Source: Tachypleus tridentatus
Taxonomy: Eukaryota; Arthropoda; Merostomata; Xiphosura; Limulidae
DNA: 64,000 bases
NCBI RefSeq assembly: GCF_004210375.1
Contig: NW_027467782.1
Location: 33,655,771 to 33,719,770 of the forward strand
Reading direction: 5' to 3'
The position numbers and the translations under genes are program-made. Positions 13,991 to 43,633 of this stretch are shown one piece after another. The notes beneath the pieces were generated by a model. The model saw nothing but the letters and a program-made list of their open reading frames with translations. It made no database searches and was not told the origin of the DNA. Position 1 is the first letter of the stretch. The number at the start of each line of letters is the position of its first letter.

Positions 13991-13999
13991 GGGGTGAGA

Positions 14000-15057: not shown

Positions 15058-15098
15058 CTTAAAATATGGAATAATGGCATATAAAATAAAGTCAAATA

Positions 15099-19915: not shown

Positions 19916-19970
19916 ATCAATAGTATTCCAACCACTACTGTAGTTGTTGTATGCCAGTGAGCCTTATAAG
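19916..19970 (-). CDS. candidate exon E1 of an unidentified gene
   Basis: 55 bp on the minus strand between acceptor CATTTAATAG (19,971) and a consensus donor GTAAGTAG (19,915). The frame that joins E2 in phase reads YKAHWHTTTTVVVGILL. It is identical in unit B (27,386-27,440) although the surrounding DNA differs, which hints at past constraint or recent conversion. The exon is short, so chance is possible; the phase match with E2 is the main support. Function unknown. Confidence 0.45.
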
Positions 19971-20794: not shown

Positions 20795-20972
20795 ATTTAC
20801 AGTAGGAAAATAATTAAATGTATAAAAACTATTACCTTTTAAAATTATGCAAGAGTGTACACGTTATCTTATATACTTATAGATAACTCAAATTGTAAAA
20901 ATATTATGCTAAAAATATTTTTAAAATTGTTTTACAAACTGCGAAAGTTTATGACTGTATATATACATATAT

Positions 20973-21124
20973 GGCCCGACATGGCCAAGCGTGTTAAGGT
21001 GTTCGACTCGGAATCCGAGGGTCACGGGTACGAATCCCGGTCACACCAAACACGCTCGCCCACCCAGCCATGGGGGCTTTATAATGTTACAGTCAATCAC
21101 ACTATTCGTTGGTAAAGGAGTAGC
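20973..21124 (+). repeat. SINE-A head, cut off inside the body
   Basis: It begins GGCCCGACATGGCCAAGC right after TATATACATATAT and stops at GGTAAAGGAGTAGC, where full copies continue CCAAGAGTTGGCGG. The B box region is AATCCCGG. The missing half appears to be the SINE tail at 43,505-43,633 (see findings). Confidence 0.88.
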
Positions 21125-21447
21125 AGTCTCCATATAAGGCAAACACCGAGGTGGATATTCAGGTCTCAGAGGAAATAACATAAATGTAGAACCTTCCAGG
21201 AGTACAAGAGAAGCAAAATAACAAAATAATGTACTTTTAAGTCTATCCACCTCACAAAACATATTTTGTTGTGTTACTTTTCGCGTAATGTTTCTGGTAC
21301 AAAGAAACGAAGACAACATGTAGTATTCAGTATTCATTTTCCTTTATTGAGTCATTTGTACTTCGCGGATTATTTCTGAATTCGAAGTTTCTCACTCCAC
21401 CTTATCACCAGACAGAAGAAATATTTTCTAATACCTGTAATTACTTT
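21125..21447. other. short unassigned stretch with LINE-leader-like piece
   Basis: 21,140-21,205 resembles 13,884-13,965 (AAACAC, GGTGGAT, CAGA, AGAACCTTCC in the same order), the presumed leader of the zinc-knuckle LINE. Nothing else recognised. Confidence 0.35.
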
Positions 21448-21661
21448 GAGAGTCCCCGTCACATTAAACATGCTCGCCCTTTTAACCGTGGGAAGGTTAT
21501 AATGTGACGGTCAATCCCACTATTCGTTGGTAAAAGAGTAGCCCAAGAGTTGGCGGTGATGACTAGCTATCTTCTCTCCAGTCTTACACTGCTAAATTAG
21601 GGACAGCTAGCACAGATTAGCTCGAGTAGCTTTGTGCGAAATTCAAAAACAAGCAAACAAA
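21448..21661 (+). repeat. SINE-A, 5'-truncated copy
   Basis: It starts within the head (CCCCGTCACATTAAACATGC) and runs through CCCACTATTCGTTGG, GCCCAAGAGTTGGCGG and GTAGCTTTGTGCGAAATTC to an AAACAAGCAAACAAA tail. Little diverged from the other young copies. Confidence 0.9.
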
Positions 21662-22933
21662 CCCTAGGTTTAGTTCACGTAGTTTCGATTGTAACGGCAT
21701 TTCATTAACATATATTTATTTTAATATGAACGATTCTTTTAGTTAAATGTATATTAATATTTAGAAATATACGCCACTTCTTGTGTTAAATATGTATTGC
21801 GAAATTCTCCTCTATTTTATAAATTTGTAGAAGATTCTAGAGTAAAGAATCATCAATTGCAGATATGTGTGTTTAAGTTCTAGTTACTGCCAGTATTGTT
21901 GCCAACTGAAATTTGAACTTTGTCTAATGATTATGAAAGATAGTCATCAAACTCGCTGAGAAATAGCATATATTGTTAGTTTGTAACAGTTAGTATACTA
22001 TAAACCTCAGAACTGATAACTGTTATAAACGCTTATTAATCGAAAAAAAAACTACCTATATTTGACCAAGAACGTTCATTGATGTCGAACACTGCAAACC
22101 ATTTAACTTTAGACGATAGTATTTTTACGAGGACATTAGATATTTTCCGCGGTTAAAAGTCAGCTTATAAACGGCGTGAGTCCAGCGAATAATAGAGTTA
22201 GCTAGTTTCCTCGTTAAGTGAACTGCATCTATATCAACTTGAAAGTTATTATCATGCCAGATAGAGGACTTGATATTGTTTTTGTGTGTATGAATCTTGT
22301 TGGCAATTATTATAAATTTGATACACGTTCACATTAAATTTCTCGCTGCTTTCATTCATATAAGAAAAACTACAAAGACATTTTAGTTTCCGCATGTTGT
22401 TTTACCATTTATATTATACTTATGTAAATATATATTGTTTCCATAATCTTTCCAAATACAGACAAATACTATAAAACGAGTTTATATAAAATTGTGTTAT
22501 GATGCAGTTGAAGATAAAATATTAATAACTAAATCAAACTTCAAAGAGATTGCAATATTTACAGAAATACTATGTACTATTCATGTTAATGTAACACAAA
22601 TAATATTTAATAAATAGATGTATGTCGGAATGAACATGAATTCGTGAAATCAAAGTATTTTGATGGCTAAAAATTATTATACCAAGATATTGAGTCTTAC
22701 ATTTACTAAAGAAAAACAAAGCAATTCTATAAAGATATAAGACGAAACCCCAATTTTCAAATTAAAAAAAAAACATCGATGCAAAAAATAGTAATAATGG
22801 ACACTTCATAAAAAATGCATAATGTCAAACAAACAAATACATTAAAATTTTAGAAATAAATAACTTCACTTTTGTCATCCTGCAATTATTATGTCAAACA
22901 CATAAGCAAATACCTAATTGGATTACCGAAACG
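21662..22933. other. AT-rich unique DNA, no gene seen
   Basis: No protein, RNA or repeat recognised. It has more CG-containing words than the DNA further left, but no clear promoter signal. Confidence 0.5.
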
Positions 22934-23657
22934 ATTCACTAAGAAACACATCGACATATATACCATAATCATATCAAATCCAGATATTCATTAAGAAACA
23001 CATCAACATAATTATACCAAATCCAGGTATTCATTAAGAAACACATTGACGTGAACACCGTAACTATACCAAATCCAGGTATTTACTAAGAAACACATTG
23101 ACGTGAACACCGTAACTATACCAAATCCAGGTATTTACTAAGAAACACATTGACCTCTATATTATAATCATACCATATCCAGGTATTCTGTAAGAAACAC
23201 ATCGACATCAATACTATAATCATACCAAACATATCGACATATATACTATAATCATACCAAATCCAGGTATTCACTAAGAAACACATCGACATAAATATTA
23301 TAATCATACCAAATCCATCCACATATTTACTATAATCATACCATATCCAGGTATTAACTGAGAAACACATCGACATATATACTATAATCATACCAAATCC
23401 ATCCACATATTTACTATAATCATACCAAATCCAGGTATTCACAAAGAAACACATCGACATATATACAATAATCACACCAAATCCATCCACATATTTACTA
23501 TAATCATACCATATCCAGGTATTCACTGAGAAACACATTGACATATATACTATAATCATACCAAATCCATCCACATATTTACTATAATCATACCAAATCC
23601 AGGCATTCACTAAGAAACACATCGACATATATACTATAATTATACAAAATCCAAGTA
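22934..23657. repeat. composite minisatellite, 52- and 84-bp periods
   Basis: The left part is built of units of about 52 bp (AAATCCAGGTATTCACTAAG, then AAACACATCGACATATATAC and TATAATCATACC). The right part alternates that unit with a 32-bp one (AAATCCATCCACATATTTAC, then TATAATCATACC), giving an 84-bp higher-order period. Because 84 is a multiple of three, the minus strand stays open for 183 codons, a by-product of the period. Confidence 0.92.
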
Positions 23658-23670
23658 TGAAAATCAATAT

Positions 23671-23937
23671 TTGTTTTTGTTTCGCTTGAGGCTATTTGAG
23701 GGCTATCTGCGCTTGTCGTCCCTAATTTAGTAATGTAAGAGTAGGTGGAAGACAGCTGATCATCAGTACCTACCGCTAATTTCTTGCATTACTCTTTTAA
23801 CAACGAATAGTGGGATTGACCGTTACGTTAAAACGCACCCACTTCTAAAAGAGCGAGCATGTTTGGTGCGACGAGGATTTTAACCCGCGACCCTTGGATT
23901 ACAAGTCGAGTGCTTGAACCACATGGCCATGCCGGGC
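23671..23937 (-). repeat. SINE-A, full-length minus copy
   Basis: In reverse complement: head GCCCGGCATGGCCATGTGG, B box GGGTTAAAATCC, the CCCACTATTCGTTG block and the tail. Moderately diverged; no clear target duplication. It directly abuts the minisatellite. Confidence 0.9.
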
Positions 23938-24142
23938 GAAAGTAATGAGAAGTACTTGTAGTTACTAAGGGTAATCTGAAACAAGTAACGTTGAGATGCT
24001 TGTTTCATATGGAGGATTATCACACAAAAATATATTATTCCTGGTAGGATTTTTCTTTACTAATTAAAATACTTTTTATTGGTGTTTTAAATAGAAAGTT
24101 CTACCGTTCATGATTTTTGGCTTAAAAAGATTACACGTTCGC

Positions 24143-24620: not shown

Positions 24621-26531
24621 TCTGACCAATGTTTCATGACCAATGCTGTCAGTGAACAAAGGTCATGGAGTGACATTATTCACTGGACTAAGAATGTAAG
24701 TTGAAATTCTTGATATGAGTATGCTCTCTTTGTACACACTCCCATTAAATGATCAAGAAAAAAGATGTTTAACATTACAGATATTAATTTTGAGGTAAAG
24801 AGGACTGGAAGGTTAAACACGAACCATCTAGTGGAAGAAGACTATTGTATTGTTTGAAATGGTAAGTGAGTTGTACCAGTGATGAATATTAGTAGTCTGT
24901 TCTCTTTATTATACTTTTAAAATTAAACAATAAGTTATTCTCTTGTAAACACTCTTAAACTCCTATATTTTGTTTGTTTTAATTGATTTTTTTTACCTAG
25001 TGTTTTCCTAGCATCATTACAATATGTACCTGATTTGCATGTTTGTTTGTTTTTCTCTTTATCATTTAATACTGAAACTTATGTTAGTGAACTTTTTATT
25101 TGTCTTTCCTACAAGAAAACATCTCTTAAATTGCAACTTCTATAACTTTTTAAGAAATAAAAATTCATTCAATGTTTTTAGGTAAAAATAAAATATCTAC
25201 TATTTCTAAACTACTTAGTTCAGAGACGTCTCAAGAAATGTTTCCAGGAACAGAGGGTTAAAGTTAAGAGCAATGAATCTGCCATTACAGACAAGTGCTT
25301 ACAATCAGACTTGATCATTATGATTTATAAGACTCATTTAAGTCATACTGTAAATTTGCAGCTATATATACTCTATAATAGTAAATGTTGGTTTGTTCTT
25401 TTTGGTTCTTAACCCTGCAGGAGAATTTCGTCCCACATAAAACAGCTGCTTATATAGGTACAGTAATCTGAAATTACATAAAGCACATTATTTCAATGGC
25501 ATTTACTGTATATGTATGGTAAGAACAAAATATATCTGTGGTAACCTGCTGCTGATATTACCAGCAAGCAGCAACAAGTTAATCCCAATCACATTATGTC
25601 AGGGTTTACAGAATGTCATCAAGACTGCATAGATTTCTTTGAAAACCTGACTGATAATTTCCATGTTTTATATCCAAGAAGCTGCTGTAGTAGTGACATT
25701 TTCCAATATTAAGCTACAAGGTAGGTATCTGGAGGTTTTAAGTAAAGCTGCTGATAAACCTAGCAATTTTTTATTGGAACTCATAATCAAGTATTCTTTA
25801 TAAACATAATAAAGGAGAATCAGGATTAATTTAATGCATCACTTCTTAGCTTGCAGCCTGAGCTATTATAAAATTATTGTCAGAAAACAACAAAATTATA
25901 AACCCTGTCATTTTGAAACTCCTTCAAAGGTAATGAGCACATTGTTTTTTGTAACTTACAAGAGGGTAACAAATTGTAAATAATGGAAAAGTAATTAAAA
26001 GTTTTAATGACATTACGAAACCTAAAAAATGATCAAATGTTTATACACTAATATTTTAGTATTATTAAAAAGGATAAACAAGTTCTTGCTTTTCTGACCC
26101 TGATGTTATGCACAAGAAACACTTTTATAGGGGTATAAAAACTGTTAATGTTGAGTTCCTTTAAATTTTTTCACGAGTAAAAAATTACTGAAGACAACGA
26201 TTGTATGAAAAGTTAACAAATGTTTGAAAATATCTAGATATTATTACTTTTGAATAGAATTTTCATGATACCAAAACACTGGATTAACATCTCAACAGGA
26301 CAAAAATCAAATACTATGATTACATAATGCACTAAACTCATACCTCACTAAAAAACAAAATATACAACATGATCACTTCTGTTATGTTTTACCAGATAGG
26401 GATGATAATTAACACCTAAAGGCTATAATTACCTAATAAAGCAATGTAGTTAAACCCCACTATTTAATAAAGCATGTATCACAACCACTCAAAAAACATA
26501 GCTGATTATGACCAGAAAAAAAAATACATAC

Positions 26532-26675
26532 CAGTAGTGTTTGTACACTAAGTCCTGTCTAATGTGATAAAACATTGTACTGTAGCCAGCTGTGTTTTAA
26601 TGTACAGAAAACCCACACAATGGCTCTCTATGGAGAGCATACGTCAGCTTCCACTTGATAAATCCACTACCACTG
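26532..26675 (-). pseudogene. decayed copy of exon E2 in unit B
   Basis: Same length (144 bp) and splice sites as E2 (donor GTATGT, acceptor CTATGTAG), but an in-frame TAA at 26,597-26,599 interrupts it after CGFSVH. Several residues differ (Tyr to Cys before GFS, Lys-Gln-Cys to Lys-His-Tyr at the end). If E2 is a true exon, this copy is dead. Confidence 0.5.
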
Positions 26676-27160
26676 CTACATAGCCCATGAACACATTAGC
26701 AAATTTTTTATATGTACGGAATTTTTTCATCGTCTTGTGACTCCTAAAAATAACCCTCAAAGTTGATGATGAAAACATAATGATATGAGCTGTCTCAGAT
26801 ATATATTTTTTCAGCTTTACGAGATTCTAGATTGACCAAATGTTATTATTTTACATGAATAATAAATGTAAAAAGGTTCAATCATAAAGGAGAGATATTC
26901 TAATAAAATATAATAACTTTTAAATAGTTGTGTGAAAAAAATAGAGAAAAATTACAAATAAACTTTAAGAATATAATATAACAAGTTAGAAACTTAAAAT
27001 CTCCCTCTGAATGCATTAATTAATTTAAAAACTACATGTACTTTGGACTTCAAAGGTTTATTACATGCATTAATGATCTAATGATTTCATTCATATATAA
27101 TTTCAGTCAGACAATACGGTGAGTGGATGGTAGATAATATTCTAGACATATCAGACAGAA

Positions 27161-27270
27161 TGTGTTTGTTTTGTTATAGCAAAGCAACAACGGGCTATCT
27201 GCTGTGTCTACCAAGGGGAATCAAAACCCTGACTTTAGCATTATAAATTCAAAGACTTACCTATGTCCTA
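27161..27270 (-). repeat. SINE-C copy in unit B
   Basis: Counterpart of 19,690-19,800, with a few substitutions (CAACAACGGGCTATCTGC). Confidence 0.6.
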
Positions 27271-27385
27271 CTAGGGAACAGACAATGAACACTTGTATAA
27301 CAGTTGTTATGGAGTGAATACCTTTTCTAAGTTAACATTCACAAACTTCATATCATAAAAACTGTTGTAATAACAAACTACTTAC

Positions 27386-27440
27386 ATCAATAGTATTCCA
27401 ACCACTACTGTAGTTGTTGTATGCCAGTGAGCCTTATAAG
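27386..27440 (-). pseudogene. copy of exon E1 in unit B
   Basis: All 55 bp and both splice sites are identical to 19,916-19,970. It is called a pseudogene because the next exon in this unit is interrupted. Confidence 0.4.
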
Positions 27441-27672
27441 CTATTAAATGCAATGGTAGCCCACATCAAAATCTTATATCAAAGTTAAAATAGCCTTCTT
27501 GTTTTCAAATTATAAATTTCTCTAAAAAAAACGATTCCTAATTCTTTTAGCTTTTTTCACCTCAATCAAATACATTAAACTACTGAAGGTTTTTCAATGT
27601 GTGTAAATAATCATACTTAAATAATTTTAAACCTTTACACCACTATTATTTTCTAATGGGATTCAAAACATA

Positions 27673-28409
27673 TAGTCTTCAAAAAAAGAAACGCAAAAGG
27701 CAGAATATAAGACATATTGTTAACAAGTTTATTCCGGGTAGTTCTGTGCGACATGTGTGAAACTTTGCACAGTCACTGCTGAACATCCAAAGTCTGCAAA
27801 GGCGAAGTCCGTAAGATTCCCTCGAATGTGCAAAAGGACTGTTGAAGCAGTAGACGTCGCAGTGGTGGTCCTATCCCGAAGGTGACGTAACCGGATGTAG
27901 TGATCCTGTGCGGGCGTGGTCACACGAGGTCTGCCAGATCGTGGACGGTCACGAGTTGATCCATGTTGTTGGTGACGATTCCATAGCCTTGTGATGGTGC
28001 TATATTAATATAATAAAATAAATAAATTATATATTCAAACATCTAATACCGCCCTCTACATTCCGACACTCAGGTAGCTTTCGGTCAGTTACCTCTTTCT
28101 TTGTGAACCTGATGATGACCGAAGAAGGTCGAAACGTTGTTCGCTCTTCTATGTAAAATATTTTCTCAACCCAAACGAGCCGTTTTTTGCAGATCTCTCA
28201 AACAAATTTATTGGATACGCATGCGTTTTGGCGAAAATCCGATGTTTTCCTCCGTTTTCAAAGTGCACAACTTTTATTGTCATTTTGGTCTGACAATTAG
28301 TGCCTTAACACGTGTAACATCACATACTCTGAGCTTGTAACGTTATTACATATATTTCTCTTTAAAATAACAAAAATATCCCTTTTGCCTTTCTTTTTTT
28401 AAAGAGTAT
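27673..28409 (-). mobile_element. Tc1/mariner-type element, non-autonomous, inserted in unit B
   Basis: The two ends form an inverted repeat of about 28 bp: TAGTCTTCAAAAAAAGAAAC at the left, and the reverse complement of the right end reads TACTCTTTAAAAAAAGAAAG. TA flanks both sides (27,671-27,672 and 28,410-28,411). Unit A at about 20,199 shows the uninterrupted site. Internally the minus strand keeps an N-terminal Tc1 transposase piece (27,729-27,990) that reads WRSTRDRPRSGRP-like residues, then VTTPAQDHYIRLRHLRDRT. The DDE domain is absent. A second repeat, with a hammerhead-like motif, is nested at about 28.02-28.22 kb. Confidence 0.85.
28103..28144 (+). ncRNA. hammerhead-ribozyme-like motif
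   Basis: In order: GTGAAC, core CTGATGA, an extra T, GACC, loop GAAGAA, GGTC, core GAAA, CGTT, then GTTCGC. GTGAAC and GTTCGC can pair over six positions (one G-U), and GACC pairs with GGTC. AACGTT is self-complementary, as in the very short stem III of dimeric hammerheads in Penelope-like elements. The extra base after CTGATGA departs from the standard form. The flanks (TAATACCGCC before, CCCAAACGAGCCGTTTTTTG after) look like a Penelope-like element end. Activity is unknown. Confidence 0.45.
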
Positions 28410-29397
28410 ATTTATATATGGTGCCTTTGTTGTTAATATTTGCAATAATTTTATCAAGATACAAATAATAGTTGATACTATGGAATAAGAACCAGAATTT
28501 TATTTGATTAAGTAAGTGGTTCAAAAGTTGTATGAAGTTTAAAGTTAGGCAATTGAAAACAGATGTTTCATTTCAAAGAGAATAACTGATATTTACCAGT
28601 AAGACAGGAGCATTATGCAGTGAAAACAATATTTTATTGTTAAAAAGGCTCCATTACCTACAAAGATTCATCAGAAATCCATCATCATATCATATTATTT
28701 ACAATAGGAAAATAATTAAATGTTCAAAAAAATACCTTTCAAAATTATGTGAGAGTGTAGATGTTATCTTGTGTAATCATAGATAACTCAAATGATAAAA
28801 ATATTACACTTAAAATATTTTTAAAATTATTTTATAAACTGCTATAGTTTATGACTGTATATATACATATATGAAGTATAGTCAGTATATACGTATTTTT
28901 TATCAAATTAGCACTAAAATGGTGAAAATGTTTTTATATTACATTTCTATAAAATGTGCAAATATTTGAAATTTATGTAATAACATTTTATTGTGAAAAT
29001 TATTTGTATTTTATCCAAAAAAATCACAAGCATAAGCAAAATAAGTAACTGAACAATTTAAAAATGTTTTCATCTTCAGTAATATTAGACCCTTTGGCTC
29101 CCTGTTAATGGCCAGTGATCCCACAAGAATATATATGTGTGTGTATGAAATTTCCAAGAATGCTTCAAATGAATGTCCTAAATGAGTTGTATTATATGCC
29201 ACAACAGCAGTTTCTTTGATACTATATTATCAATCAAAGACAAAAGCTTTAAGAATTAATATTTTTCACTTAATCTGCTAAGTGTATTACGTCTATTATT
29301 AATACTCTTAGGTAACATTTGAGGACTTAACTGACACCTAATAAAATTCAATTTAGATGTTAGAAAATTGCTCATACTGACGTCCAAGCCCCTAATG

Positions 29398-29510
29398 GCA
29401 CAGCGGTATGTCTGCAGACTCACACCACTAAAATCTGGGTTTCGATGCCCCTGGTGGACAGAGCACAGATAGCCCATTGTGCAGCTTTGAGCTTAATTCT
29501 AAACAAACAA
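29398..29510 (+). repeat. SINE-B copy in unit B
   Basis: Head CCCTAATGGCACAGCGGTAT, B-box-like GGTTTCGATGCCCC, tail TCTAAACAAACAA. Flanked by ACTGACGTCCAA (29,386-29,397) and ACTGATGTCCAA (29,511-29,522). The inverted copy D has it at the same site, so it predates that duplication. Confidence 0.88.
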
Positions 29511-30021
29511 ACTGATGTCCAACAAATATTCGAAATTTTGAGTAACTTACAAGTTATTGTGTCACAAAATATTGTGAACTCAGATAATAAATGGGCCATT
29601 TATCCTAGTCTCATACACACTTTGAAGAACTTTAAATTGTATTTGCAATAATTAACTTACAACTACCTCTACTACTAGTTTTTGAGTTTGATCAGCATCC
29701 AACATTGAATTTTAGCTTTACACATTTCGTGGGTGTGAGCGCTAGTTCTAAAACTAATGCAATATCAAAAATTACAGATTAAAATCATATTAATTACTTA
29801 TCTTTCTGTTCCCTTTGTTGTGAATTCTGAATGTATTTGTGTATAAAATTATATTTTAAAGCTATAGTTTTAGTTTTCTTCAAAGAGAAAATATATGATA
29901 ACTTTACATAAGGTAAGTAAGCTTATACAGTTTAAAGATGGGTTGAATTGATAACAAATCTTATTAAAAGTTTAACATGATAATGAATGTATAGTGTTTG
30001 GAAAAAGTTTTGTCATCATCA

Positions 30022-31194
30022 GGTTTAATAATATACCTATACACTGAAATGTATATTGTATGAAGCAAAGAGGTTGCATAACTTGAGATTGCTTAAAGCA
30101 TAATAAAGTTATTTTGTTGATGCTCTGTTTATAATTACTGTTTTTTACTTTTTAATAAACACATTATGATTTTATTAAGTTGCAGTGTTTGTAAACATAT
30201 TTTTTAATATGTTCACCAAATAAAATACTGTCATCAAATTGTACAATTTTACTACTTAGTGAATATGGTAGCAAATTGCAAGATATTGTGATATTGTAAA
30301 TATTTATTAAGTAATGTTCTAGAATGTTTATTTTGTTCAAATAATGAAGATAAATAAATTGTTTAACTAAAAATGGCAACTGTTAAAAAGATGAAAGCTG
30401 TCATGTGAAAATTAGTGGAAAAAAAAAAGAGTGAAAGAAAAAATTAAAAATGATATCACGTTAGAATAATGTTGTGGTTGAAAAAAATTAAGGAGTAAGC
30501 ATGTGCTTTTCTTGTATGGGTTATAAAAGGTGTGGTACTAATGGGTTGAGTGTAATTGATCAGTTCAAGGAATTCAAGGAATTATTTTCCACAAAGTAGG
30601 GCACACAATTCTTAGGGATTTAGTAACAAAAAAAGAAGAGGAACATTATTTAATGTTGTCCTTTGCATAATTTTTGCTTCTTTCATAAGTACTCTTAACT
30701 GGTGGTAATAAATACAAACTGTAGATGTTTAAATCCTTAAACAGAACTAATTTACAAAAATTGTAAACTTGTTAAGCATTTTTAAGAAACCCCCCACTAA
30801 AAAAGTAAGTTCTAATACAGAAAATCAAGATTTTCTAACTTGTTTACAATACCACTTGGATGGAAAGTACATAAGTTATAAAATATTTCTATTTAATGTT
30901 GTTTTTAAGCATTAAACACACAGAAAATACATTTTTGTCATTTAAAAACTTGACAGTCAGACATGTACAGATCATATATAAATTTGTAACTGTAAAGGTG
31001 ATGCATTTGGTTTGTTCTCTCAAAACATCTCAGTGATGGTATACTTAACATGTGATGAAACTTGTGGTTACCATGAAACACATTCATCTATTTAAAAAAA
31101 CTGATACTGACACTCATAATGTATAAATATTAAAACAGACTTATTTGTGAGCTTTCTGATATTTTAGTTATTAAACTTTCTATATTCCAGTTGG
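30022..31194. other. AT-rich unique DNA, no gene seen
   Basis: No feature recognised. Confidence 0.5.
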
Positions 31195-32310
31195 TAACAA
31201 AACATTTTGTTGTTATCCCATTTCACAGTGTCAGGATGGCATCTGAATAGTGCTTGATATTGGTGGTGTTGCACAGCATCATCCTTATCATACAGTTGAA
31301 TGTTTCTGCAGAGTTGACATGGCACCTGCTGAAATTGGTAAATCCATCTAGTATTAAAATGCTGTCTTCTCTGTAAATCCTGTCTTCATTAGGATTTGGC
31401 AATAACCTTTACTGAGGTTGATCTTTGAAGAGAACCTGACCTTATAATTTCTAGGTTGTCCATAGTTTCAGAGTTGAACTTCATCACAAGATTCAGCTTT
31501 TGGAAATTTATTTAGAAACAGTTAACCTATCTCTAATTTTTGTGATTAAAACTGGTAAATGGTAGGCTAAATTTGAAGGCTTAACAATTCCAGCTTCCAA
31601 CATTGCCTCAGCTTCCTGCTTTGTAAGGTACAGTGGAGCGCCATTAAACCGCGAAATTGCTTAAGCCGCTGTAGCAAGTCTTGTCCCAGAATTTTGATGT
31701 ATTAAATCTACTACCTGGCTTTCTAAAGTTTCTCACACTCTCCTTGTCGTTGACACTGACATGACGAATATGAGCGAGGATTATCGCTGCTCACCGCTAA
31801 TTTAAGAAAGTGCAAAACGTGGCTTACAAATTTAATCCTGGCTTTATAACTTCAAGGAGATATTTAAAAAGGATTTGCTTTAATTTGGGAAATAAATAGA
31901 ATATATTACAGTAGAAATTGACCGTTAATCTACCTTATCCGCTCTGTATGCCAGCTTTATGGAGGCTGCCATTGTTACCGAATCACACCTCTCCATACAT
32001 TAAACTTAATCCGCGGTAAATCCGTGAAAAAGTGATCAATAATTAAAGTATTATTTTAAATTCGATAATCCAATATTTTTATGGAATTGTATAAATATTA
32101 GCCACACACCCAATAGACATCACTTCAGTTTCTGAGCTGTTGGCGACTTCGGCTTTTCAGTCACAAAGGTTTAATCCGTGGACCTATTAAGCCGTGGTTA
32201 ACAAGGTTGACTCCCCAAATACTGCATCTTAACGGCGCTCCACTGTATTTCATTGCATAAGGTATCTGAAAGGGCTTCACTTTAGCTGGATACCATGTTG
32301 TTGTGTTGCA
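31195..32310 (-). mobile_element. fossil Ty3/gypsy-like fragment (reverse transcriptase part)
   Basis: On the minus strand the DNA to either side of the nested MITE resembles the N-terminal half of a Ty3/gypsy reverse transcriptase (for example KQEAEAMLEAGIVKPS). It is only a fragment: no LTR, gag, integrase or primer site is visible. It is broken in several places and looks old. The MITE at 31,631-32,245 inserted into it later. Confidence 0.7.
31631..32245. mobile_element. pogo/Tigger-type MITE, 615 bp
   Basis: Left end CAGTGGAGCGCCATTAA and right end, in reverse complement, CAGTGGAGCGCCGTTAA, flanked by TA at 31,629-31,630 and 32,246-32,247. Subterminal parts also pair loosely (AAGCCGC with GCCGTGG regions). 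There is no coding capacity. It carries more CG dinucleotides than its surroundings. CAGTGG ends and TA target match the pogo/Tigger group. Confidence 0.93.
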
Positions 32311-32325
32311 CAAGGCCTATCTTTC

Positions 32326-32538
32326 CTGATGATGACAAAACTTTTTCCAAACACTATACATTCATTATCATGTTAAACTTTTAATAAGATTTGTTATCAG
32401 TTCAACCCATCTTTAAACTCTATAAGCTTACTTACCTTATGCAAAGTTATCATACATTTTCTCTTTGAATAAAATTTCTTTAGCTTTAAAATATAATTTT
32501 ATACACAAATACATTCAGAATTCACAACAAAAGAAACT
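32326..32538 (-). repeat. unit F: inverted copy of 29,822-30,021
   Basis: In reverse complement it reads TTTTGTTGTGAATTCTGAATG to GTTTTGTCATCATCAGG, like the end of unit B, with scattered changes. It forms a pair of inverted arms 2.3 kb apart with unit B's end. Confidence 0.88.
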
Positions 32539-33246
32539 TTACAAAGCTATAAAAAACAACCTATATTTTAACTTTATCAACACATGATAGTCTATGTGCT
32601 ATATCCAAGTACATTTAAACTTTCTCAACAATAGTTATCATAGCAAGAATAGTTTCTCTTTCTTTCTTTTATGAAGAGGGGGTCCAATTAGACTTCTAGT
32701 GGTTTAATTAATAAGTGTACATCACATTCATTGTTTTTATTATTTATACCTGTGTTACAAGTCATTAGTGATAAAATTAATTAGAAAGTCTATTATTATT
32801 AGTTCATATAGGTTGTAATGAACAATTTAAAATCTATATCTTTATTTCTACTAATGTGATCAATTGGAAAATAAAAACAAACATTTTAAACTTTAATTGA
32901 AATAAATTATTATATTTTGAAAGGAAAACCATGTATACACCTCTATTCACATTTTAGTGTTTGCAAACATCAGTTTGTTTTCAATTCTTTTTTGTCACTT
33001 GCATTTTTACTTATTTTGGATATCAACAGTACTAAAACACTTGTGACATTATAACTTTCAAACAATGAAAACAGATTTTAAAGTAGGCATATGTTACAAG
33101 AGCTACAAGTGTCATAAATATAAGGGCTACAAATGATGTAAGAAATAATAACCATAAATTTTTTCAAAATTTTGGTTAAAATAAAGTTTTTTATTACCAT
33201 TTAGATAAAAAGGTAATTTTTTCTAACTTCATTACCAAAATGTCTG
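32539..33246. other. AT-rich DNA, no gene seen
   Basis: No feature recognised. Confidence 0.5.
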
Positions 33247-33301
33247 GTGCAGACAGCCTAGTTGCTTTGCACCATGAAATGCCAAGCTAACCAACCAACA
33301 A
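33247..33301 (+). repeat. SINE tail fragment
   Basis: CCTAGTTGCTTTGCACCATG, then AAATGCCAAGCTAACCAACC resembles the 3' end of an arthropod tRNA-SINE with a CCAACCAAC tail. Only the tail is present. Confidence 0.4.
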
Positions 33302-36300
33302 TGAAAATGTCTAAATCCCTCCACTGTGCATTATAAATTCAGAAAAATAATGCTAACTTTATTAAAAACAAATCTCCATAAAGTCTAGAATGCATGCACA
33401 CTGTTAATTTCTGGAAAAAAGCCAAGGCCTGATAATTTACCAGGGAAACATTCAGTTGATGTTCATATTATTGTATTCATAAGTTAATGGCTGAATCTAC
33501 ACCTGACTGTTACAGATTCAAAATAAAGTAAATTCAAATAAATAATAATAAAGGTAATTAATAGACCAATCAAACAGATATTGAAACCTAATATTTATTT
33601 TCAATACTATTGACTGTTTTCCTAATTAAATGAATGGGGGGGGAAATGGAGGGAGGAGTTAAGACCCCACAGATAAAAACATTAAATGATACAGGTATTA
33701 CTTTAAAAAAGAAGAGCTAGAAGGGATGGGGTTTCAACTCCCTTGATCTCTACCTTAAATTAATGTCTATTTAAATATAATATTAAACAATATTATTATT
33801 AATCTCTGAAAAATGTGCATAAAGTTTACCCCGATGGATCCATTCACCTCACCTGCATTCTCTTATACAAAACTGAAGAATAAAGTTATTAACTACTAAA
33901 AATATGAATGACTGGACCACTTGGGTTCCTGCCCTAGATCTGCTCATGCTTATACAACCTTAAATAATAGTGATACAATTGTAATGTACAAACATTACAC
34001 AGTGTTGAGAAAAAAAATCAAAATACAATAAATTTACACCTTATTATTAAAATAGCCAGAAAGCTGACAGTCAATGGTTCAAAATTGGTGCAGTGATAGA
34101 TAGCTTCTGTAGCTTTGCAGTAACAATGACAGGAATAGTAAATTTAATGGAAATGGAAGTCGTAAAGCATCCCCACACCTGCCTCTTATGTAAGTTTGTA
34201 CCTAACAAATATTTTGATCATCTGGATATTTGGAATAACTAGAAACATTAATTTCAATTAGTTTATTATTAACATGACAACTGATTCAATCATAATTTTG
34301 ATTAATTGCTAAAATAATTATTACAAACACTTATTTTGATTGGTTAAATGATTCAGTTCTTCTGTAAGCAGATGCACGTTAACATCACATTAGTAAAGAA
34401 ATCACAAGTTTTACTAATGAAGAAAATTAAACTTAAAATGAAAAACATTTTACAACATACAATACATAATGCAAGACATGAACCAGTAAATGTTGTTACT
34501 ATTATATGGATGCAGGCAGTGTGTATGGGTGAGAAGTTTCACTGATCTCTCAGTTCCCACTAAAGTGAATACAAACAAGTTTGATCCATAGTTCACATCT
34601 CCACAAAGATAGAATACATTTAACTGCAAGAAATGTGAGGTGAAGAACATTTGAACTGCTTGTTCCAAACCTGAAAAGGAGAAGGCTGGGCCCAAATGAG
34701 GTTGAAAAGAAGAAAACTACCCAAATGAATGGGTTATTGAGAGGAGTTAAGAATGGATTTCCCCCACTGTCATGAGGAATCCTCCCTCTATTGTATCTTG
34801 TAGAATCAGTGGAGTGTGGTCTATGGACTGTGAATGAGCAGAAGCAAACATTATCTAGTTATTCATAGAGAGAAGAGCACAAATTATCATAGAGTGAAAA
34901 AAATTGAGGTTTGTCCAAACAAACAGGAAAGTCCTGAAATGGAAAACATGATATAGGGCAATGAAGTGGACACTGTGGGGAAGAATTTTAAATTGTGGAT
35001 TATGAAGGGAAAATGGTTTAGCACATGATTAACAATTTTGAAAAATAAAATAATTATATGTTACTAGTAGTAATAATTGTAACTTACAAATAATCTAGGC
35101 TAAACATACCTAGTTAAATTACTAATAATGAACTAACAAAGCCATGAAATCTGTTGAGACCACAAAGTATGTAAGATTAATGTACTTGCAAAGTGATTAA
35201 ATGTATCTAGTAATAACACAATTAATAATCAACATCTCATTTACAATTCATTTAAAATAACTTAGGTGAATAAAGACATATAAATATCTAACTTACCAAA
35301 ATCCATACATTAATGACATGAAATACTCAATTCTCCCATGTGTAAATAAGAGTAAAGCCACACAAATGACATCTGAGTCACAACTACCATAGGTATATCA
35401 ACCAGATTTGAAGTGTGGTAAAGTTTATCAACATGTACCGGTCCCCTGGTAGAACTGGTATCAACAGAAACAAAAGTATGAGAAGAGCAATTCTCTCCCA
35501 AAACAAACAACTTGGAAGCATGAAAAGTAGTGGAAAACTAAAACTCTTGAAATGGTGTGGAATATGACAGGCTAAAATAAAAAGTGTTAAAAACAAAGAA
35601 AAACAGGCTCCAAATGTCTTCTTATTGATTACATTCTTACTTAGAAACATTGTTTTACTGAAAAGAAGAAGAAATCAGTGGCTAAACCCATGAATCTAAT
35701 TTCCTTAGAATTAGTCTGTATATAACGTTGAATTAAATTCCTGGAAAATCTTACCAGTAGCATGTTTAGCTATAATGGGAAATTCTATAGTCAATACACT
35801 GATCATATATTACTGCAGCAGTAATTTGGTTTGTCAACATATTAGATACCCAGAGCTCTCATAAATGTGAACAAGTGACCTCAATGTCAGGCTCAGGGAA
35901 AAGAGGAAAAATACCAAAGACAGGAATTTTGTTTCTTTTGTTGTTGTGGTTTTACTTCTGAAAATATTTTTGACTATTTGAAAGCTGCAGGAATATTCTT
36001 CTATGATATCATATGTTTATTCTGGTTTATCAAGTGCAGTATGCAATAATTGATTGAAATCCAAATTATTTATTAGATAAAAATTCATCTTGACCAAAAA
36101 ATATAGAATTTAAACTTTTTTATATTTGAAATGAAAGATATAAACTCTTAACAGAATTAGATTTATCTACATTAATTTTCTAAAAGGTACAACTGAAGAT
36201 TGCCATTTAAACTCTTAAAATGCTTCAGTAGTCTAACACTAATAATGCAAACACAGAAAACCATACAGTTGATTTAAAAAACCTTTATACTTTACGTTTT

Positions 36301-36343
36301 TAGTAGATAATAGATACATAGATAAAAAAATAAACTACATTAC
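33302..36343. other. AT-rich DNA, no firm gene
   Basis: A G-run lies at 33,636-33,643. Minus-strand open stretches at 34,450-34,695 and 35,310-35,510 have acceptor-like flanks but match no protein I know. Downstream exons of the ZC3H15-like gene were sought here and not found. Confidence 0.4.
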
Positions 36344-36481
36344 CTTCATCTCTCAAGTCTACATAAATACTCTTCTTTTCACTCTTATTTTCAACATCAT
36401 CGTGGGAAAACTTGCATTTGTCACCTTTCTTACACTGTTCTTACTTATAAAAAACATACAGTGCAGATTTAGGATCAGTTC
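36344..36481 (-). pseudogene. ZC3H15: ZC3H15-like zinc-finger exon, broken
   Basis: A 138-bp minus-strand exon with acceptor TTTTAATTTCAG (36,482) and donor GTAATG (36,343). The product resembles ZC3H15 (DRG family regulatory protein 1), a conserved cytoplasmic partner of the GTPase DRG1. It reads GTDPKSALYVFYK, a stop, then [17 protein letters not shown] and [11 protein letters not shown]. This covers the first CCCH zinc finger (C-x8-C-x5-C-x3-H). The first Cys is Tyr here. A TAA at 36,441-36,443 stands where the family has Gln, so translation would end inside the finger. Neither change lies in a homopolymer. Splice sites show it is not a processed copy. A duplicated, dead gene copy or a null allele fits best. 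Confidence 0.8.
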
Positions 36482-37818
36482 CTGAAATTAAAATAGTTAT
36501 ATCACCTTTCTGCAAGAGATGAATATAACTGAACTGTAGCCATGTTGAGAGTAACAAGATAAAACACTTCAATGCTGTGGTGTGTGATTTACATAAAGCA
36601 GACTTTGAACACTTGTTTTGATTCACCCTAAGAGTATCAGTGACCTAACTATTGAAAAACACACAAAAAATTATGAAAACTAATTTAATATTAAAGATAG
36701 TTATGTACAGTATAATAATTCATGCTTTTAGTTAATATGTACACAATACTTGTACCACACACTTGTTACATAAGTTGTTTTAATTTTTAAAGTTATAAAA
36801 ACAGATAAAATGTACCAGCATGCATTTTTAAAATGTATAAAAATAACATTCAATAAAATTACAGTAATATAATAGCTTATGCTTTTTGTTTTGAATGAGT
36901 TTTAGCTACGTAAATAATGTCATTGTACTTATAAAGCCAATTATTGTTGGTTAGTCACAATTATCTACCTGATTTATGTCTCTGCTAAGTGTTATAACTG
37001 CAGAACTCATATGGAATAAAACTGTATTTCTTTCCAACCACTCCGAAAGAAAATATTTAACTCTCACTGATAAAGAATAAATATTTATAATTACAAGTTA
37101 TACATTAGTACAATTTTAGTGCCAGACCTTAAAAAAATAATGAAAAATAAATATTTAGAACTTTAAATGGGTGAAATTGTAAACCTGATGTTCCACACTT
37201 TAGAAATTCTTTTATATATGACTAATGCTAAAAAATCCTCACTTATGTCAGGGAAATGTATCTCTAAAAGTAGAAAGCAAAGAGGTTCCATCTTTAAACA
37301 CATTTAAGACTACATGTCAAGAGCAATATTAATATGGTAGAATACATCATGATGTATTTCAGTTTCTATATAATACATAAGGTATAAAAAACCATAATAA
37401 TTCTGGAAAGTATTTTAACTTTTTCTTGAATAACTCAGTTTGAAAGAGTTATCAACTTATGTTATTTGCTATTTCTAAAAAATAATATCTTAAAATCCTT
37501 TATCACCAACTTAGACAGCCAGATCATTGATGTATCCAAAGATAATCTGTATTAATAACATTTTATGTAGTAATTCTTAAAAGTCTTCAGTTAACTATAA
37601 AATCCTATGTTTTTTAGTACTATTAAACCTCACATTGACATATTCTCATGCTCATTTTACACCACTTCAAAACAAGCAAAAGCAACACTGGAAAAAAAGA
37701 AAAATCTTTGTATTTATATGTTTACAAAAACATGCCATATCAACATGTAGGGAGAGGTTAAGTGATTAACAATATATCACGTATTTCGTGATGACGAGAA
37801 ACCAACTTGAAGTAAAAA
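36482..37818. other. intron-like DNA between ZC3H15-like exons
   Basis: AT-rich, with no further exon seen. Confidence 0.5.
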
Positions 37819-37934
37819 ATGTATTTCAGGACAACTGTTGCAAACTCCTTCTTTGTTAATCTGGAGATGACCTAAGAAGGTCAAAACATTGTTCTCAATT
37901 TTGTTTTGGTATCACCAGTTGTCCTAAGATACAT
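37819..37934 (+). repeat. inverted-repeat unit with degraded hammerhead-like core
   Basis: Arms ATGTATTTCAGGACAACTG (37,819-37,837) and CAGTTGTCCTAAGATACAT (37,916-37,934) are complementary with three mismatches. Between them lies CTGGAGATGACC, then AAGGTCAAAAC and ATTGTTCTC, a decayed version of the motif at 28,103. It is probably the end of a Penelope-like element. Confidence 0.55.
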
Positions 37935-38654
37935 ATCACATACTTGTTATGTTACTGGAAAGTGATACAACAATGGGAATATACAAATTTCAGAATTTCC
38001 TGCTCACACTCTCTATCAAATTACATAGAAATAACTTATGGGAAAGCTTGTCTAATCTAGCATTTGTATTAGGTAAAATTAAAATAATAAACCTTTACAC
38101 TCCATACAAAAATTATACTGCACAACAATTTTTTTTAAATTTTTTGCTTCCTGAAAAGGTTTTGCTGATTGTGGCAGGTATCTGGTGGGTATGCACAAAT
38201 ATAGTTTTGGTTTTGCTTCATCAGTAGAAACTTTGAGAAATAGTCAGTTAACTGTTTACTGGCAATAACTTATTTAATTGTGTTTATGTTTGTAATACAC
38301 TATTAAGTTCAACATAATTAAAAGTGTTTTGCTCCTAATTTTTGTTTGTATTCAATGTCCAGTGCATCACGTTCCAGTGTTCAAGAGTAGTCAGCAAGCA
38401 TTGACAAATTCCAGTTGCCCTGATATTGTTTTCCCATTGTAGCAAAACTGAAGATTTCAATGAAACTATACGTAATGGGCAAATGTGGACGTGATTTTCA
38501 TGATCAGCAGCCAAACATCTATAAGGAACACCCAACAGTGTTCAAGAAGCAAAACTTTGTTGTGCAGTGTTATCTAACATTAACTTCATTCTCCACAAGC
38601 AAGGAAAGGTGACAGAAAAAAACCTATTTCTTAATATAAAGAGTAGTATTTTAC
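37935..38654. other. intron-like DNA, no firm feature
   Basis: The minus strand is open at 38,335-38,535, but the product (GVPYRCLAADHENHVHICPL) matches nothing I know. Confidence 0.4.
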
Positions 38655-38741
38655 CTTTCTCATCTTTCTGTGTTGTTACAGATTTTAATGTCAAGTTCAG
38701 GTCCTCAATTTCCTTCTTTTTCTTCCTACTTGTTGATCTAC
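38655..38741 (-). pseudogene. ZC3H15: ZC3H15-like upstream exon
   Basis: An 87-bp minus-strand exon with acceptor ATTACCTTAG (38,742) and donor GTAAAA (38,654). It reads RSTSRKKKKEIEDLN, then LTLKSVTTQKDEK, like the ZC3H15 segment KKKELQELN that sits just before the ADPKS motif. It ends with one base of a codon, and the next exon (36,481 down) supplies two, giving Gly then TDPKS, exactly in phase. This exon has no break of its own, but the gene copy is disabled in the next exon. Earlier exons (the basic N-terminus) were not found with confidence. Confidence 0.7.
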
Positions 38742-40299
38742 CTAAGGTAATGTGAGTAGAGTGTGATTACTCTTATATTACCAACAATTTGTTTGAACCT
38801 TTGTATCAATAACTTTAATAAACATGGCATACTATTTCACTGATTAAGTAAACAAATTATGCATTACAAAGATAATTAGAGTTTTAAAATATTCAAAACA
38901 TATTATGTAATAAATGTTCATTAAAAATAAAAAAATGTGACAGCTGTTAAGATGAAAATTACACTTTATGAATTTGACATTAATGTGGTACTTATAAGAT
39001 AACTATATGGAAGTATTATTTTACACAGCCTTTCATACTGTTTTTCTTCATACTTTTCTACAGACAATGTTGATGATAATTATGAAATTACAAAGTGTTA
39101 AAGACATGTTAAAAGGTCAACAGAAAATTCTGCAGTTTCAAACACTGGTAAAAGTTAAGGTAGCCTTGGATACCTTGTTTGACTAATATTTTGAATGCTA
39201 ATGCACTGTCTTCTCATAAGTTTATAAGAACTGACCACACCTTTTCAGCACGATATTAAAGCAGTAAAATGAAGTAAATAACACCCAGAATTTGCCTTTA
39301 TCAGACCCAATTTAAATTCATCTGATCTATTTAGGATGTGTGTGTGTTGATGTGCATCACCACTGAATATACCCCAAATCAGTCATTTTCTGACCTCAAC
39401 AAAGTATTTGGTTATTTCAAAATCAGATTTGATACACTAGCCAAAGAATACTATAAAAAAACAGAAACAAGAAACAGTCTCATCTTTACCTGACACACCA
39501 TCTCATGTGCACCAGACAAAACAATATCACCAAACAAGAAGCATCACAATGTAATTTGAAAAACAATTAGTCAACATGACTGTAATCCATCATTACTACA
39601 CAACCTGTGTGAGGAAATTAGTCACTCACACAATCAGCAGAACTTCACAAGTAGCATGGAAATTTCTAAGGCAGACATAAAGACAGCTTTCTGTGCAAGA
39701 CATGAACTGCCTCTAAAAGATTAATTTTGATTACTGAATATTGAAGATGGTAATAATTGGACACACAAGTTGATTATTTTCATAAAATTAATTGATTACT
39801 TTGCATGAAACTAACTCATGTATCAATTCTCATTCTGATTAAGAAATTTTGAAATTTAACCATGAATTTTGCAACAAGTTATTTTATGGTCTGGCCTAAA
39901 GCTAAGCAATGTAAATCTAATTCAGATAGTCAAAGTGAGAGAAAAATAGTGCCACCATCAACACAGATAACCATTTATTTTAGTTTCTGTTCATATACAT
40001 TAAAATTACAAATGGTTGATATAAATAAATCAACTTTTTTTAGACTGTTTGCAAATTTTTAACACTGCTTCCACAAGCCAGACACCCAGGATTTGTGCTG
40101 AATGGCTATCCTTAATAAATAAAATCATTCTAGAATGAGCTAAAACTCACTTTTAGAGTTTTCTGGTTGAACAAAATCTCCTACAAAGTTTTATGAAAAA
40201 ATATGCAGATTTAGTAATGCTATTGAAAGTTTTTGACTCCCATAGTACACAGTAGTAAACTTGGAAGATGTGTATGTTATGTTATTAACTATTTGTTCT
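38742..40299. other. AT-rich DNA, no gene seen
   Basis: No recognisable feature. Confidence 0.45.
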
Positions 40300-41180
40300 C
40301 ATTCTTGCTTTTTGTTTTCAGAGTAGGTACAAAGGCCATGACCTTCACATCAGTGGGATAATTCTCATCTAGCTATTTCAAAAGTTTGTTCTTCAATCTA
40401 TCTTTCATTTCTTTAAACATCATTGACTAGAATATCAGTGCAAGTATAACTTTTTCTGGCAAAACTTGTTGCACATTATTGGCATATGAGAATAGTTTTG
40501 TATTATCAGATTTAATTGTATTTCCAGTCATGTTCATAAGATCATCTGGATCTCCTGGAAGTAATGTAGTACTAAAAATCCTTAATCCTGCCATGCAGAA
40601 TGCAAGCAATCAACTGTTCTTTTCAAGAGCACTGAAACTTGATGCTTTTCATCGAGCTTCTTGATTTGGAAAGTTTAATGTTGTTGTGCATTCAATACCA
40701 AATTGAATCGGCATTGCTCCTGTGCCATGTTGAAATACCACAACGTCTTGCTTTTACACTTCAATTCTTGGATTATCTGCATCATTCATTCAGTGTCACA
40801 AACTCCATGGGATCCTCAGAAGTTCTGCTAGACATTTCGTCTTCGGCACTCTCCAGTGGAATAGATGAATCAGTCCTTTATTTTCTCTTTCTTCATACTT
40901 TTAAATTACCTTGCAGTTCTTTCACACCTGTTTTTTATGCAATTTTGACCTCTAGGTCTGAACCATTACATCTACACTGTCACTTTGAACTTACAAGTCA
41001 CTTTCTTCTTTTCCTGTATCAATGTTACTTTATCAATACAGGATCAGCACACTTAATCACTGAATGTTGTAGCATGTTGACATCTGTTTTGTGGCCAGCT
41101 GTAGATCAAATTTTCACAAAGTGTGCAACAGTTATCTGTATTTTGGCCAATCAGGTTTTGGTAAAGGTATCAACCAATTA
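40300..41180 (-). pseudogene. possible decayed hAT/BED-type transposase
   Basis: The minus-strand text has pieces such as TVDCLHSAWQD, MNMTGNTIKSDNTKLFSYA, FKEMKDRLKNKLL and LDENYPTDVKVMAFVLL. The last part resembles the stretch before the C-terminal dimerisation domain of hAT/ZBED transposases. Several stops and frame changes interrupt it. No zinc finger or ends were found. It could instead be an unrelated relic. Confidence 0.3.
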
Positions 41181-41181
41181 A

Positions 41182-42198
41182 CTAAAGATCCGAAGTGACT
41201 GCAAAGTGCAATTATCTACCCATGCTGTTTTTGGTCTTGTATCTGATTTTGTTTTAATGAAAAACTATTTAATATTATAAAACTAGTTTTCATAGTTTAA
41301 AACTTGCACATAAAGAGTCATTAATACAATTAAGTTATAAAGAGAAGTACTTGCCCTGTTAAGTGCTCTTGAAGCTTTACTAGTTGCTTCACGTGTACAA
41401 GTGACAGTAAGAATAAAACCATAATAACCTGTAGGACTCACTCAACCACTAGAAATACCTTTTCTGATTACAATAGAGCCACAATTCGAAGCACGTTTTC
41501 ACCATTGCCTTTAAAGTCTAAAATTGTAAATTTACAATTTATGTAGTCCCAACTTATAAGTTTTATACTAATAATTTCATTTTAAAATGTTGTCCAAATC
41601 TACTTACACAATTCGGCAGACACTACTTGTAATGAGAATGAACAATTATTAATTATGTGGTTAACTAACTCGTTTTCGTATTAACCCTCACAGACCAGCA
41701 TTAGGCTTAGCAGCTACGATAAATTCAAGTTACAGTACATTTTTACAAGTACAAATATTGCACTGGTTAATATTTACAATGTCCTTGTACACGACAATAA
41801 AATTTAAATATGTTTCACTTTTTTCTTCTTGTAAATTTTCTTTCCTGATTCGTTTGGTTTTCCTTGGGGTGATCACTTCACATAAATAAATCTATAAACA
41901 TTTTACTGCATCATATCTTTTAACCCCAACGTATTGAATGCAATATTTTGCTTGAAAATTGTCAGTGACCAGCGTAGTAAGCTACATGTGTTATCGAGCG
42001 ACCTCTACAATTCCAAAAAAGTGCCAAGCGAATCTGCAAGAAAATTCTCGTCATATTAAGAATATTAAAAAGCGTACGTATGCTTATATTCTTGTCATTG
42101 TTAGTAGAATGGAATATTTTGTAATTCTAGCAGTATTATGAGATTAAAAGGTGACAAATAGGACTTGGATGATATCACAATAGTTGTCTCCAGATCCT
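41182..42198. other. unassigned DNA left of unit D
   Basis: No gene seen. A basic stretch on the minus strand near 41,820-41,880 (TPRKTKRIRKENLQEEK) weakly recalls the ZC3H15 N-terminus but lacks a proper donor site. Confidence 0.4.
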
Positions 42199-42277
42199 AA
42201 GGTAAGTAATTAATGTGATTTTAATCTGTAATGTTTAATATTGCATTAGTACTAAAACTGGCGCTCATGCCCACGAA

Positions 42278-42552
42278 GGCCCGGCATGGCCTAGCGCGTA
42301 AGGCGTGTGACTCGTAATCCGAGGGTCGCGGGTTCGCGCCCGCGTCGCGCTAAACATGTTCGCCCTCCCAGCCGTGGGGGTGTATAATGTTACGGTCAAT
42401 CCCACTATTCGTTGGTAAAGAGTAGCCCAAGAGTTGGCGGTGGGTGGGGATGACTAGCTGCCTTCCCTCTAGTCTTACACTGCTAAATTAGGGACGGCTA
42501 GCACAGATAGCCCTCGAGTAGCTTTGTGCGAAATTCCCAAACAAACAAACAA
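42278..42552 (+). repeat. young full-length SINE-A with perfect target duplication
   Basis: Head GGCCCGGCATGGCCTAGCGC, loop CTCGTAA (CGT at the anticodon place), B box GGGTTCGCGCCC, tail ATTCCCAAACAAACAAACAA. Flanked by ATGCCCACGAA at 42,267-42,277 and 42,553-42,563. Unit B shows the empty site at 29,726-29,737. It is the least damaged SINE-A here and a good guide to the family consensus. Confidence 0.96.
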
Positions 42553-42841
42553 ATGCCCACGAAATGTGTAAAGCTAAAATTCTACGTCGGATGTTGATCA
42601 AAGCTGGTAGTAGCGGTAGTTGTGAGTTTATTATTGCAATTACAAACTATAAATTAAAGTACTTCAAAGTGTATATGAGATTGGGATAAATGGCTCATTT
42701 ATTATTTGAGTTCATATTGTTTTGTGATACAATAACTTGTAAGTTACTCAAAATTTCGAATACAAAGACTTACATTTTCAAAGCAGTATAGTTTTGTAAT
42801 AAACTTTTCAAATTCCGAGTGAAAATTCGTTGGATATCAGT

Positions 42842-42968
42842 TTGTTTGTTTGTTCAGAATTAAGCACAAAGCTGCACAATGTGCTATCTGTGCTCTGCCT
42901 ACCATGAGCTTCGAAACCCGGGTTTTAGTGGTGTGAGCCTGCAAACAAACCGCTGTACCATTTGAAGC
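42842..42968 (-). repeat. SINE-B copy in unit D
   Basis: Counterpart of 29,398-29,510. Reverse complement head AAATGGTACAGCGGTTTG, B box GGGTTTCGAAGC. Target-site remnants TTGGATATCAGT and TTGGACATCAGT flank it. Confidence 0.85.
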
Positions 42969-43504
42969 TTGGACATCAGTATGAGCACCTTTCTAAAATC
43001 TAAATTGTATTTCATTAGGTGTCAATTAAGTCCTAAAACGTAACCTTAAGAATATTAGCAATAGAAATAATACATTTAGCAGATTAAGAATAAAATATTA
43101 GTTCTTAAAGCTATAGTCTTTGATTGACAATGTAGTACCAAAGAAACTGCTGTTGTGGCATATAACACAACTCATTAAGGATGTTCATTCGAAGCATTCA
43201 ATTTCACACACACACACACATATATACATACATTCTTTTGGGATCACTGGCCATTAATAGGAAGCCAAAGGGTCTGATATTAATGAAGATGAAAAAAGTT
43301 CTTAAACTGTTCAGTTACTTATTTTGCTTATGCTTGTGACGTTTTTTGGATAAAATACATATAATTTTCACAATAAAAGATTATTACTTAAATCTCAAAT
43401 ATTTGCGTATTTTATACAAATTTATTATAAAAACATTTTCAGCATTTCAGTGTTGATTTGATAAAAATACACATGTACTGATTATACTTTATATATGTAT
43501 ATAT

Positions 43505-43633
43505 TTGTTTGTTTGTTTTGAATTTCGTGCAAAACTGCTCGAGGGCTATCTGCGCTAGACATTCCTAATTTAGTAGTTTAAGACTAGAGGGAAGGCAGCT
43601 AGTCATCACCACCCAGCGCCAACTTTTGGGCTA
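43505..43633 (-). repeat. SINE-A tail, cut off inside the body
   Basis: In reverse complement it starts TAGCCCAAAAGTTGGCGCTG and ends CACGAAATTCAAAACAAAC, followed by TATATACATATAT. The head is missing. It complements the SINE-A head at 20,973-21,124 at the same target site. Confidence 0.9.

Follow-up and report, generated by a model that had tools for sequence, protein, structure and literature searches.

A SINE split in two around a reversed segment of about 22 kb in a duplicated unit of the Tachypleus tridentatus genome

The DNA analysed here is a stretch of 64,000 nucleotides from Tachypleus tridentatus (assembly GCF_004210375.1, 2.17 Gb, 205 contigs), C19:33,655,771-33,719,770, where C19 is contig NW_027467782.1; the whole stretch is referred to as the window. 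The genome is a horseshoe crab's: it has 19 matches to the coagulogen family, which 0 of 14 control genomes has, and two exons agree with the coagulogen chain 1AOC, from Tachypleus tridentatus, at 45/45 and 47/47 residues. The window contains the head and the tail of a short interspersed nuclear element (SINE) on opposite strands, at the two ends of a segment of about 22 kb, and beyond the tail a long interspersed nuclear element (LINE) that stops abruptly. The surrounding DNA belongs to a large duplicated unit in which the SINE stands between an A side and a D side. One SINE has been split in two here, and compared with the ancestral order the segment between its parts is turned around.

The SINE was compared with the intact 278-bp SINE of a unit copy on contig C13, which served as the reference. 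Genome-wide searches were made with the head plus its flank, with the tail junction and with the stretch to the right of the head, and the 40 best places were scored for each probe; all copy counts given below are among these best 40 matches per probe and are therefore lower bounds. Head matches were cross-matched against the matches of probes for the tail, for an insert (X), for two other parts of the segment (M and Y) and for the LINE. An uninverted copy, c38 (C19:38,327,296-38,353,500), was fetched for comparison at the level of single bases.

The split SINE and its uninverted relatives

The features at the two ends of the segment are these:

20,960-20,972, plus strand: left target-site repeat, TATATACATATAT
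20,973-21,124, plus strand: SINE head (positions 1-152 of 278), ending GAGTAGC; 144/152 bases identical to the C13 SINE
21,125-21,449, plus strand: insert X (~325 bp), which predates the inversion; at least 97% identical in 35/40 scored matches
21,450-21,496, plus strand: SINE-2, the 5'-truncated SINE body of the uninverted unit, from alignment with the copies c38 and canon1
21,497-21,519, plus strand: left breakpoint zone, a 23-bp stretch that SINE-2 and SINE-3 share without a mismatch
21,520-21,661, plus strand: tail of SINE-3, whose original place is the opposite end of the inverted segment, where it lies reversed in c38 and in the copy tl12
21,662-22,340, plus strand: Y, the flank of SINE-3
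43,491-43,503, minus strand: right target-site repeat, TATATACATATAT
43,504-43,633, minus strand: SINE tail (positions 149-278), beginning TAGCCC and followed on the minus strand by TATATACATATAT; 119/129 bases identical to the C13 SINE
43,635-43,638, no strand: right breakpoint, a 4-bp overlap TATT; 32 other tail-probe matches end exactly at 43,638
43,639-50,746, minus strand: LINE, broken off where its reverse transcriptase domain begins; its probable right end is where the match to canon1 stops

The original prediction, made from the letters of the window, had a single SINE divided by a reversal, with a head that follows TATATACATATAT and ends GAGTAGC and a minus-strand tail that begins TAGCCC and runs into TATATACATATAT. 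Both ends were found in the sequence as described, and head and tail, which might have come from different SINEs, match the same intact element, overlapping by the 4-bp TAGC when aligned to it. The uninverted order that had been sought is present in the same genome: at C13:126,647,401-126,648,200 the A flank, TATATACATATAT, the whole SINE, TATATACGTATAT and the D flank follow one another. The two target repeats there are 13 bp long, the 3' one (TATATACGTATAT) differing by one base, and the SINE lacks insert X, with head and tail abutting. The C13 copy has both target-site repeats and an A-rich 3' end, as a tRNA-derived SINE does. As was also foreseen, the empty site is preserved in unit B, an older paralogue inside the segment, where a single TATATACATATAT at 28,860-28,872 has both flanks joined to it. 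Ten pieces matching this SINE lie within the window. ARAGORN, run on the window and on locus L047, called 0 tRNA genes; a resemblance of the SINE to tRNA promoter boxes is something we presume. A search of open-licence papers returned none on SINEs of horseshoe crabs.

The tail adjoins the head in opposite strand sense, which is the original order, in 31/40 scored head matches, a proportion above chance. Two of the 40, the window (33,676,571) and the next unit to its right (33,719,922; the copy called down), have no adjacent tail, and in these the tail, M, Y and the LINE all lie in the same sense. One match (L014, 33,594,031) has X and no tail match, and six have neither X nor tail. Insert X lies right after the head, with the tail 407-416 bp downstream in opposite strand sense, in 30/40 scored head matches. 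Among these 30 copies, the nearest listed M is in the opposite sense in 16 and no M is listed in 12; the other two (28,704,721 and 35,309,542) have, among the matches listed, only M in the same sense, which is not decisive because M occurs as an inverted pair in several units. In four uninverted copies M and Y both run in the opposite sense, M ~9.7-10.2 kb and Y ~22.0-22.6 kb downstream. The base-level comparison gave the same orientation: in c38 the A side continues as window 43,638-40,717, 40,148-22,944 and 22,340-21,497, all reversed, and 20,971 of the 22,142 bp (~95%) of window 21,497-43,638 are carried in opposite orientation beside the same A side. Window and c38 differ in the orientation of the segment and in what lies beyond it, which is a flank termed Z in c38 and the LINE in the window.

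Between the head and the reversed DNA the window contains two features that the original prediction overlooked: insert X and, after it, a 5'-truncated SINE (21,450-21,661) that contains the left breakpoint. X directly follows the head match in 33 of the 35 X matches that are at least 97% identical. As the same insert stands between head and tail in 30/40 scored head matches, the interruption of the SINE came before the flip. From repeat to repeat the C13 copy measures 286 bp; the distance is 704 bp in five of the copies with X and 697 bp in one more. The left breakpoint had been placed at 21,124/21,125, and its actual position is the zone at 21,497-21,519. Likewise, the proposal that head and tail rejoin at TAGC is correct for the C13 SINE, which is joined there, but turning 21,125-43,629 around restores no copy that was seen unless the insert is also removed. 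Four states of the site thus coexist in one genome, namely empty (unit B), with an intact SINE (C13), with SINE plus insert (30 matches) and inverted (2 matches), and they let the course of the rearrangement be followed base by base with no need for a second species.

The two junctions

Base-by-base alignment showed that the window tracks the uninverted unit up to 21,496, continues through 23 bp common to both parents, and then follows SINE-3. In c38, SINE-3 is reversed and stands at the far end of the segment; SINE-2 and SINE-3 are therefore oppositely oriented in the ancestral order. This left junction was found in two copies, the window and down, which differ at 8/684 bases of the adjoining A region. 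L014 has a chimeric SINE like that of the window, but the D flank follows it directly, the right target repeat is missing and there is no inversion.

At the right junction, the tail is as in the uninverted copies up to 43,638 and the LINE starts at 43,635, with TATT common to both. Tail and LINE are joined in this way at six loci: in the window, in the neighbouring copy, and at 12.53 Mb (tl12), 16.44 Mb (tl16), 30.98 Mb and 32.13 Mb on C19. The LINE was identified as a non-LTR retrotransposon by an endonuclease domain (PF14529) at 44,436-45,158 in the window copy and by a reverse transcriptase in an unbroken copy (L018, canon1), in which a 191-codon open frame continues past the place at which the window copy breaks off and matches RVT_1 (PF00078; E 6e-24). 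The cut falls ~3 codons inside the start of the RVT_1 match, leaving the window copy its endonuclease side and removing nearly all of the reverse transcriptase; that the element ends abruptly in this domain had been correctly predicted. Pfam searches with two further frames of the window returned 0 families each. The copies canon1 and canon2 carry an unbroken LINE on the D side of the unit, with R (window 50,900-51,300) ~4.2 kb away in matching strand sense. Beyond Z in copies of the c38 type, LINE and R were also sought; no R or LINE-5' match lies near c38 among the 40 scored for each.

The LINEs of canon1 (C19:33,928,124-33,928,409) and canon2 also contain an extra SINE similar to window 42,275-42,553, around which window 44,397-44,407 is duplicated.

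Origin of the rearrangement

The two junctions can be separated. Of the four tail-LINE loci other than the window and down, the Y side was examined at 12.53 and 30.98 Mb (L041 and L042). In both, the left junction is absent and SINE-3 still lies in its native flank Z, which is 99% identical to that of uninverted copies; the same flank is found in c38, L038, L039 and L040. The 16.44-Mb locus matches the window as far as 26,138. Together with L014, which has the chimera without the inversion, the tail-LINE loci that lack the left junction indicate at least two events, and the single clean inversion of the original prediction is not supported. Trees were built for two D regions, the M region and the left side. 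Both D-region trees set the tail-LINE copies (window, down, tl16 and tl12) apart from c38, canon1 and canon2, with support of 0.983 and 0.926. A reading of Z as a hAT-like gene was dropped, as two pieces of it had no Pfam match above the cut-off.

We consider it probable that at least two events, the joining of tail and LINE and then recombination between SINE-2 and SINE-3 with deletion, gave the ~22.1-kb reversal in a sublineage of the units. The SINE would have inserted into the large duplicated unit, creating the 13-bp target repeats, and would later have gained an insert of ~410 bp (X plus the partial SINE body) that stayed with the head. In step 1, a break immediately before its tail would have opened the SINE, and the 4-bp microhomology would have served to join it to the LINE, by end joining or a template switch. 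The simplest source of this step would be a larger inversion that took in all the DNA from LINE to SINE and had this join at one of its ends, a reading we prefer to an exchange of unit copies; it is suggested by the unbroken LINE and R on the D side in canon1 and canon2. In step 2, which we place later, the partial SINE on the head side may have recombined with SINE-3, by then in the same orientation, through the 23 identical bases, and the intervening DNA would have been deleted.

Several observations weigh against this sequence of events. The M-region tree does not separate tail-LINE from uninverted copies (support 0.265), the differences there being 0.56% between window and c38, 0.36% between window and tl16 and 1.00% between window and down. 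In the left-side tree, the grouping of window, down and L014 has low support (0.464), and L014 implies that gene conversion, independently of the inversion, could have produced the chimera. The reciprocal junction that an inversion in step 1 would leave, SINE body plus the missing part of the LINE, was absent among the best 40 of 2,853 LINE-3' candidates, compared by eye with the X matches, and among the matches listed no X lies close to the tail-LINE loci. A 4-bp overlap in AT-rich DNA is, moreover, weak evidence for a repair pathway.

Ectopic recombination between distant unit copies is a serious rival, to which we give a modest chance. It would have set the A side beside a unit that already carried the tail-LINE junction, with no 22-kb flip in place. 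The units are numerous, 97-100% alike and present in both orientations on C19, and each junction occurs without the other; such an exchange, however, leaves the origin of the tail-LINE junction itself unexplained, and the LINE and R near the unit in canon1 and canon2, in matching sense with R ~4.2 kb from the LINE end, suggest that the LINE was already nearby. A single inversion with deletion at the right breakpoint, after which the tail-LINE loci were altered by recombination with uninverted units, would need the fewest breakage events at the locus, and inversions with sequence loss are common, 75/252 in a human-chimpanzee comparison (PMC2603318). We regard it as unlikely, since both tail-LINE loci examined (L041 and L042) keep SINE-3 in native Z and extra exchanges would be needed.

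An error of assembly is very improbable. The 500-N gap at 53,286-53,785 does lie inside a duplicated region of high identity, but it is 9.6 kb from the nearer breakpoint, and the left junction occurs in two differing copies and the right junction at six loci; a single misassembly was rejected on this recurrence. SINEs are common, as the ten matching pieces attest, and two unrelated insertions might in principle be complementary by chance. This explanation has next to no probability: no copy with two separate whole insertions was seen, and the intact C13 copy together with the 30 copies that have head, X and tail in order rules it out.

The preferred two-event history resembles a retrotransposon recombination-mediated inversion (RRMI) with deletion, a known kind of rearrangement. 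In the human-chimpanzee study, such inversions between Alu or L1 elements span 166-81,189 bp (PMC2603318). As in an RRMI, the segment is reversed relative to the ancestral order with retrotransposons at its breakpoints, the two ends of the ancestral segment bore elements of the same type (SINE-2 and SINE-3) facing opposite ways, a chimeric element forms the left junction, sequence was lost alongside, and the size falls within the range reported there (PMC2603318). Because the right junction joins a SINE tail to a LINE through TATT and is not a chimera of the same pair, it falls outside the definition (PMC2603318), and we do not class the rearrangement as a full RRMI; it also differs in lying within a multicopy unit whose junctions separate between copies. 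A further class in the same source comprises 63/252 inversions in which one breakpoint falls in a retrotransposon while the other shows microhomology; it shares with the present case the microhomology at a breakpoint involving a retrotransposon. There the other breakpoint is independent of repeats, whereas here both lie in retrotransposons (PMC2603318).

Four junctions fall in or at the end of the SINE, namely head to X, the SINE-2/SINE-3 chimera, tail to LINE, and the SINE-3-type tail to D in L014. For this reason we tentatively suggest that this 278-bp SINE may be a recurrent breakpoint, repeatedly re-sorting the duplicated unit into new structures across one chromosome. The locus also illustrates that an inversion deduced from two matching ends may break hundreds of bases away from them and may sum separate events. 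We know of no gene or trait that the inversion affects.

The duplicated unit and its surroundings

The remaining features of the window belong to the unit and its neighbour:

10,536-20,959, plus strand: A side of the unit, left of the segment and not inverted; 98.4% identical to 53,786-62,802, and in the same strand sense in uninverted copies
24,628-29,531, plus strand: unit B, older paralogue of A and D with the empty site; 87-94% identical to A and 85% to D, in pieces
29,532-43,490, plus strand: remainder of the inverted segment, made up of M and D parts and reversed in c38
53,286-53,785, no strand: gap of 500 N
53,786-64,000, plus strand: A side of the next unit (the copy down), from similarity to the A side of the window

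At least 35 copies of the unit exist, most of them on a single chromosome. Of the 40 scored X matches, 35 are at least 97% identical to the query and the next is 84% identical. Positions 5.66-38.69 Mb of C19 (of 69.8 Mb) hold 30/40 scored head matches; the others are on C4, C7, C8, C10, C13 and C103. This points to a young expansion in the first 39 Mb of C19, restricted for the most part to that chromosome. Human segmental-duplication units can carry SINE/Alu sequence at their edges. The present unit is like them in that its copies on one chromosome are highly identical yet differ by structural variants; it differs in belonging to an arthropod genome and in being spread over ~33 Mb of one chromosome.

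Probe M occurs in inverted pairs ~10.7 kb apart in at least 7 units (C19 near 8.58, 18.97, 30.81, 31.55, 33.26, 37.87 and 38.63 Mb), a palindrome-like structure. In the window the next unit copy starts straight after the gap. A run of 500 N is present in the tl16 region (C19:16,420,001-16,460,000) too, and this region matches the window no further than the corresponding unit position, 53,285; the tl12 match stops at 53,285 as well, yet there is no N there. A tandem array lies inside the inverted segment at 22,934-23,653 and seems longer in tl12 (C19:12,554,001-12,556,000).
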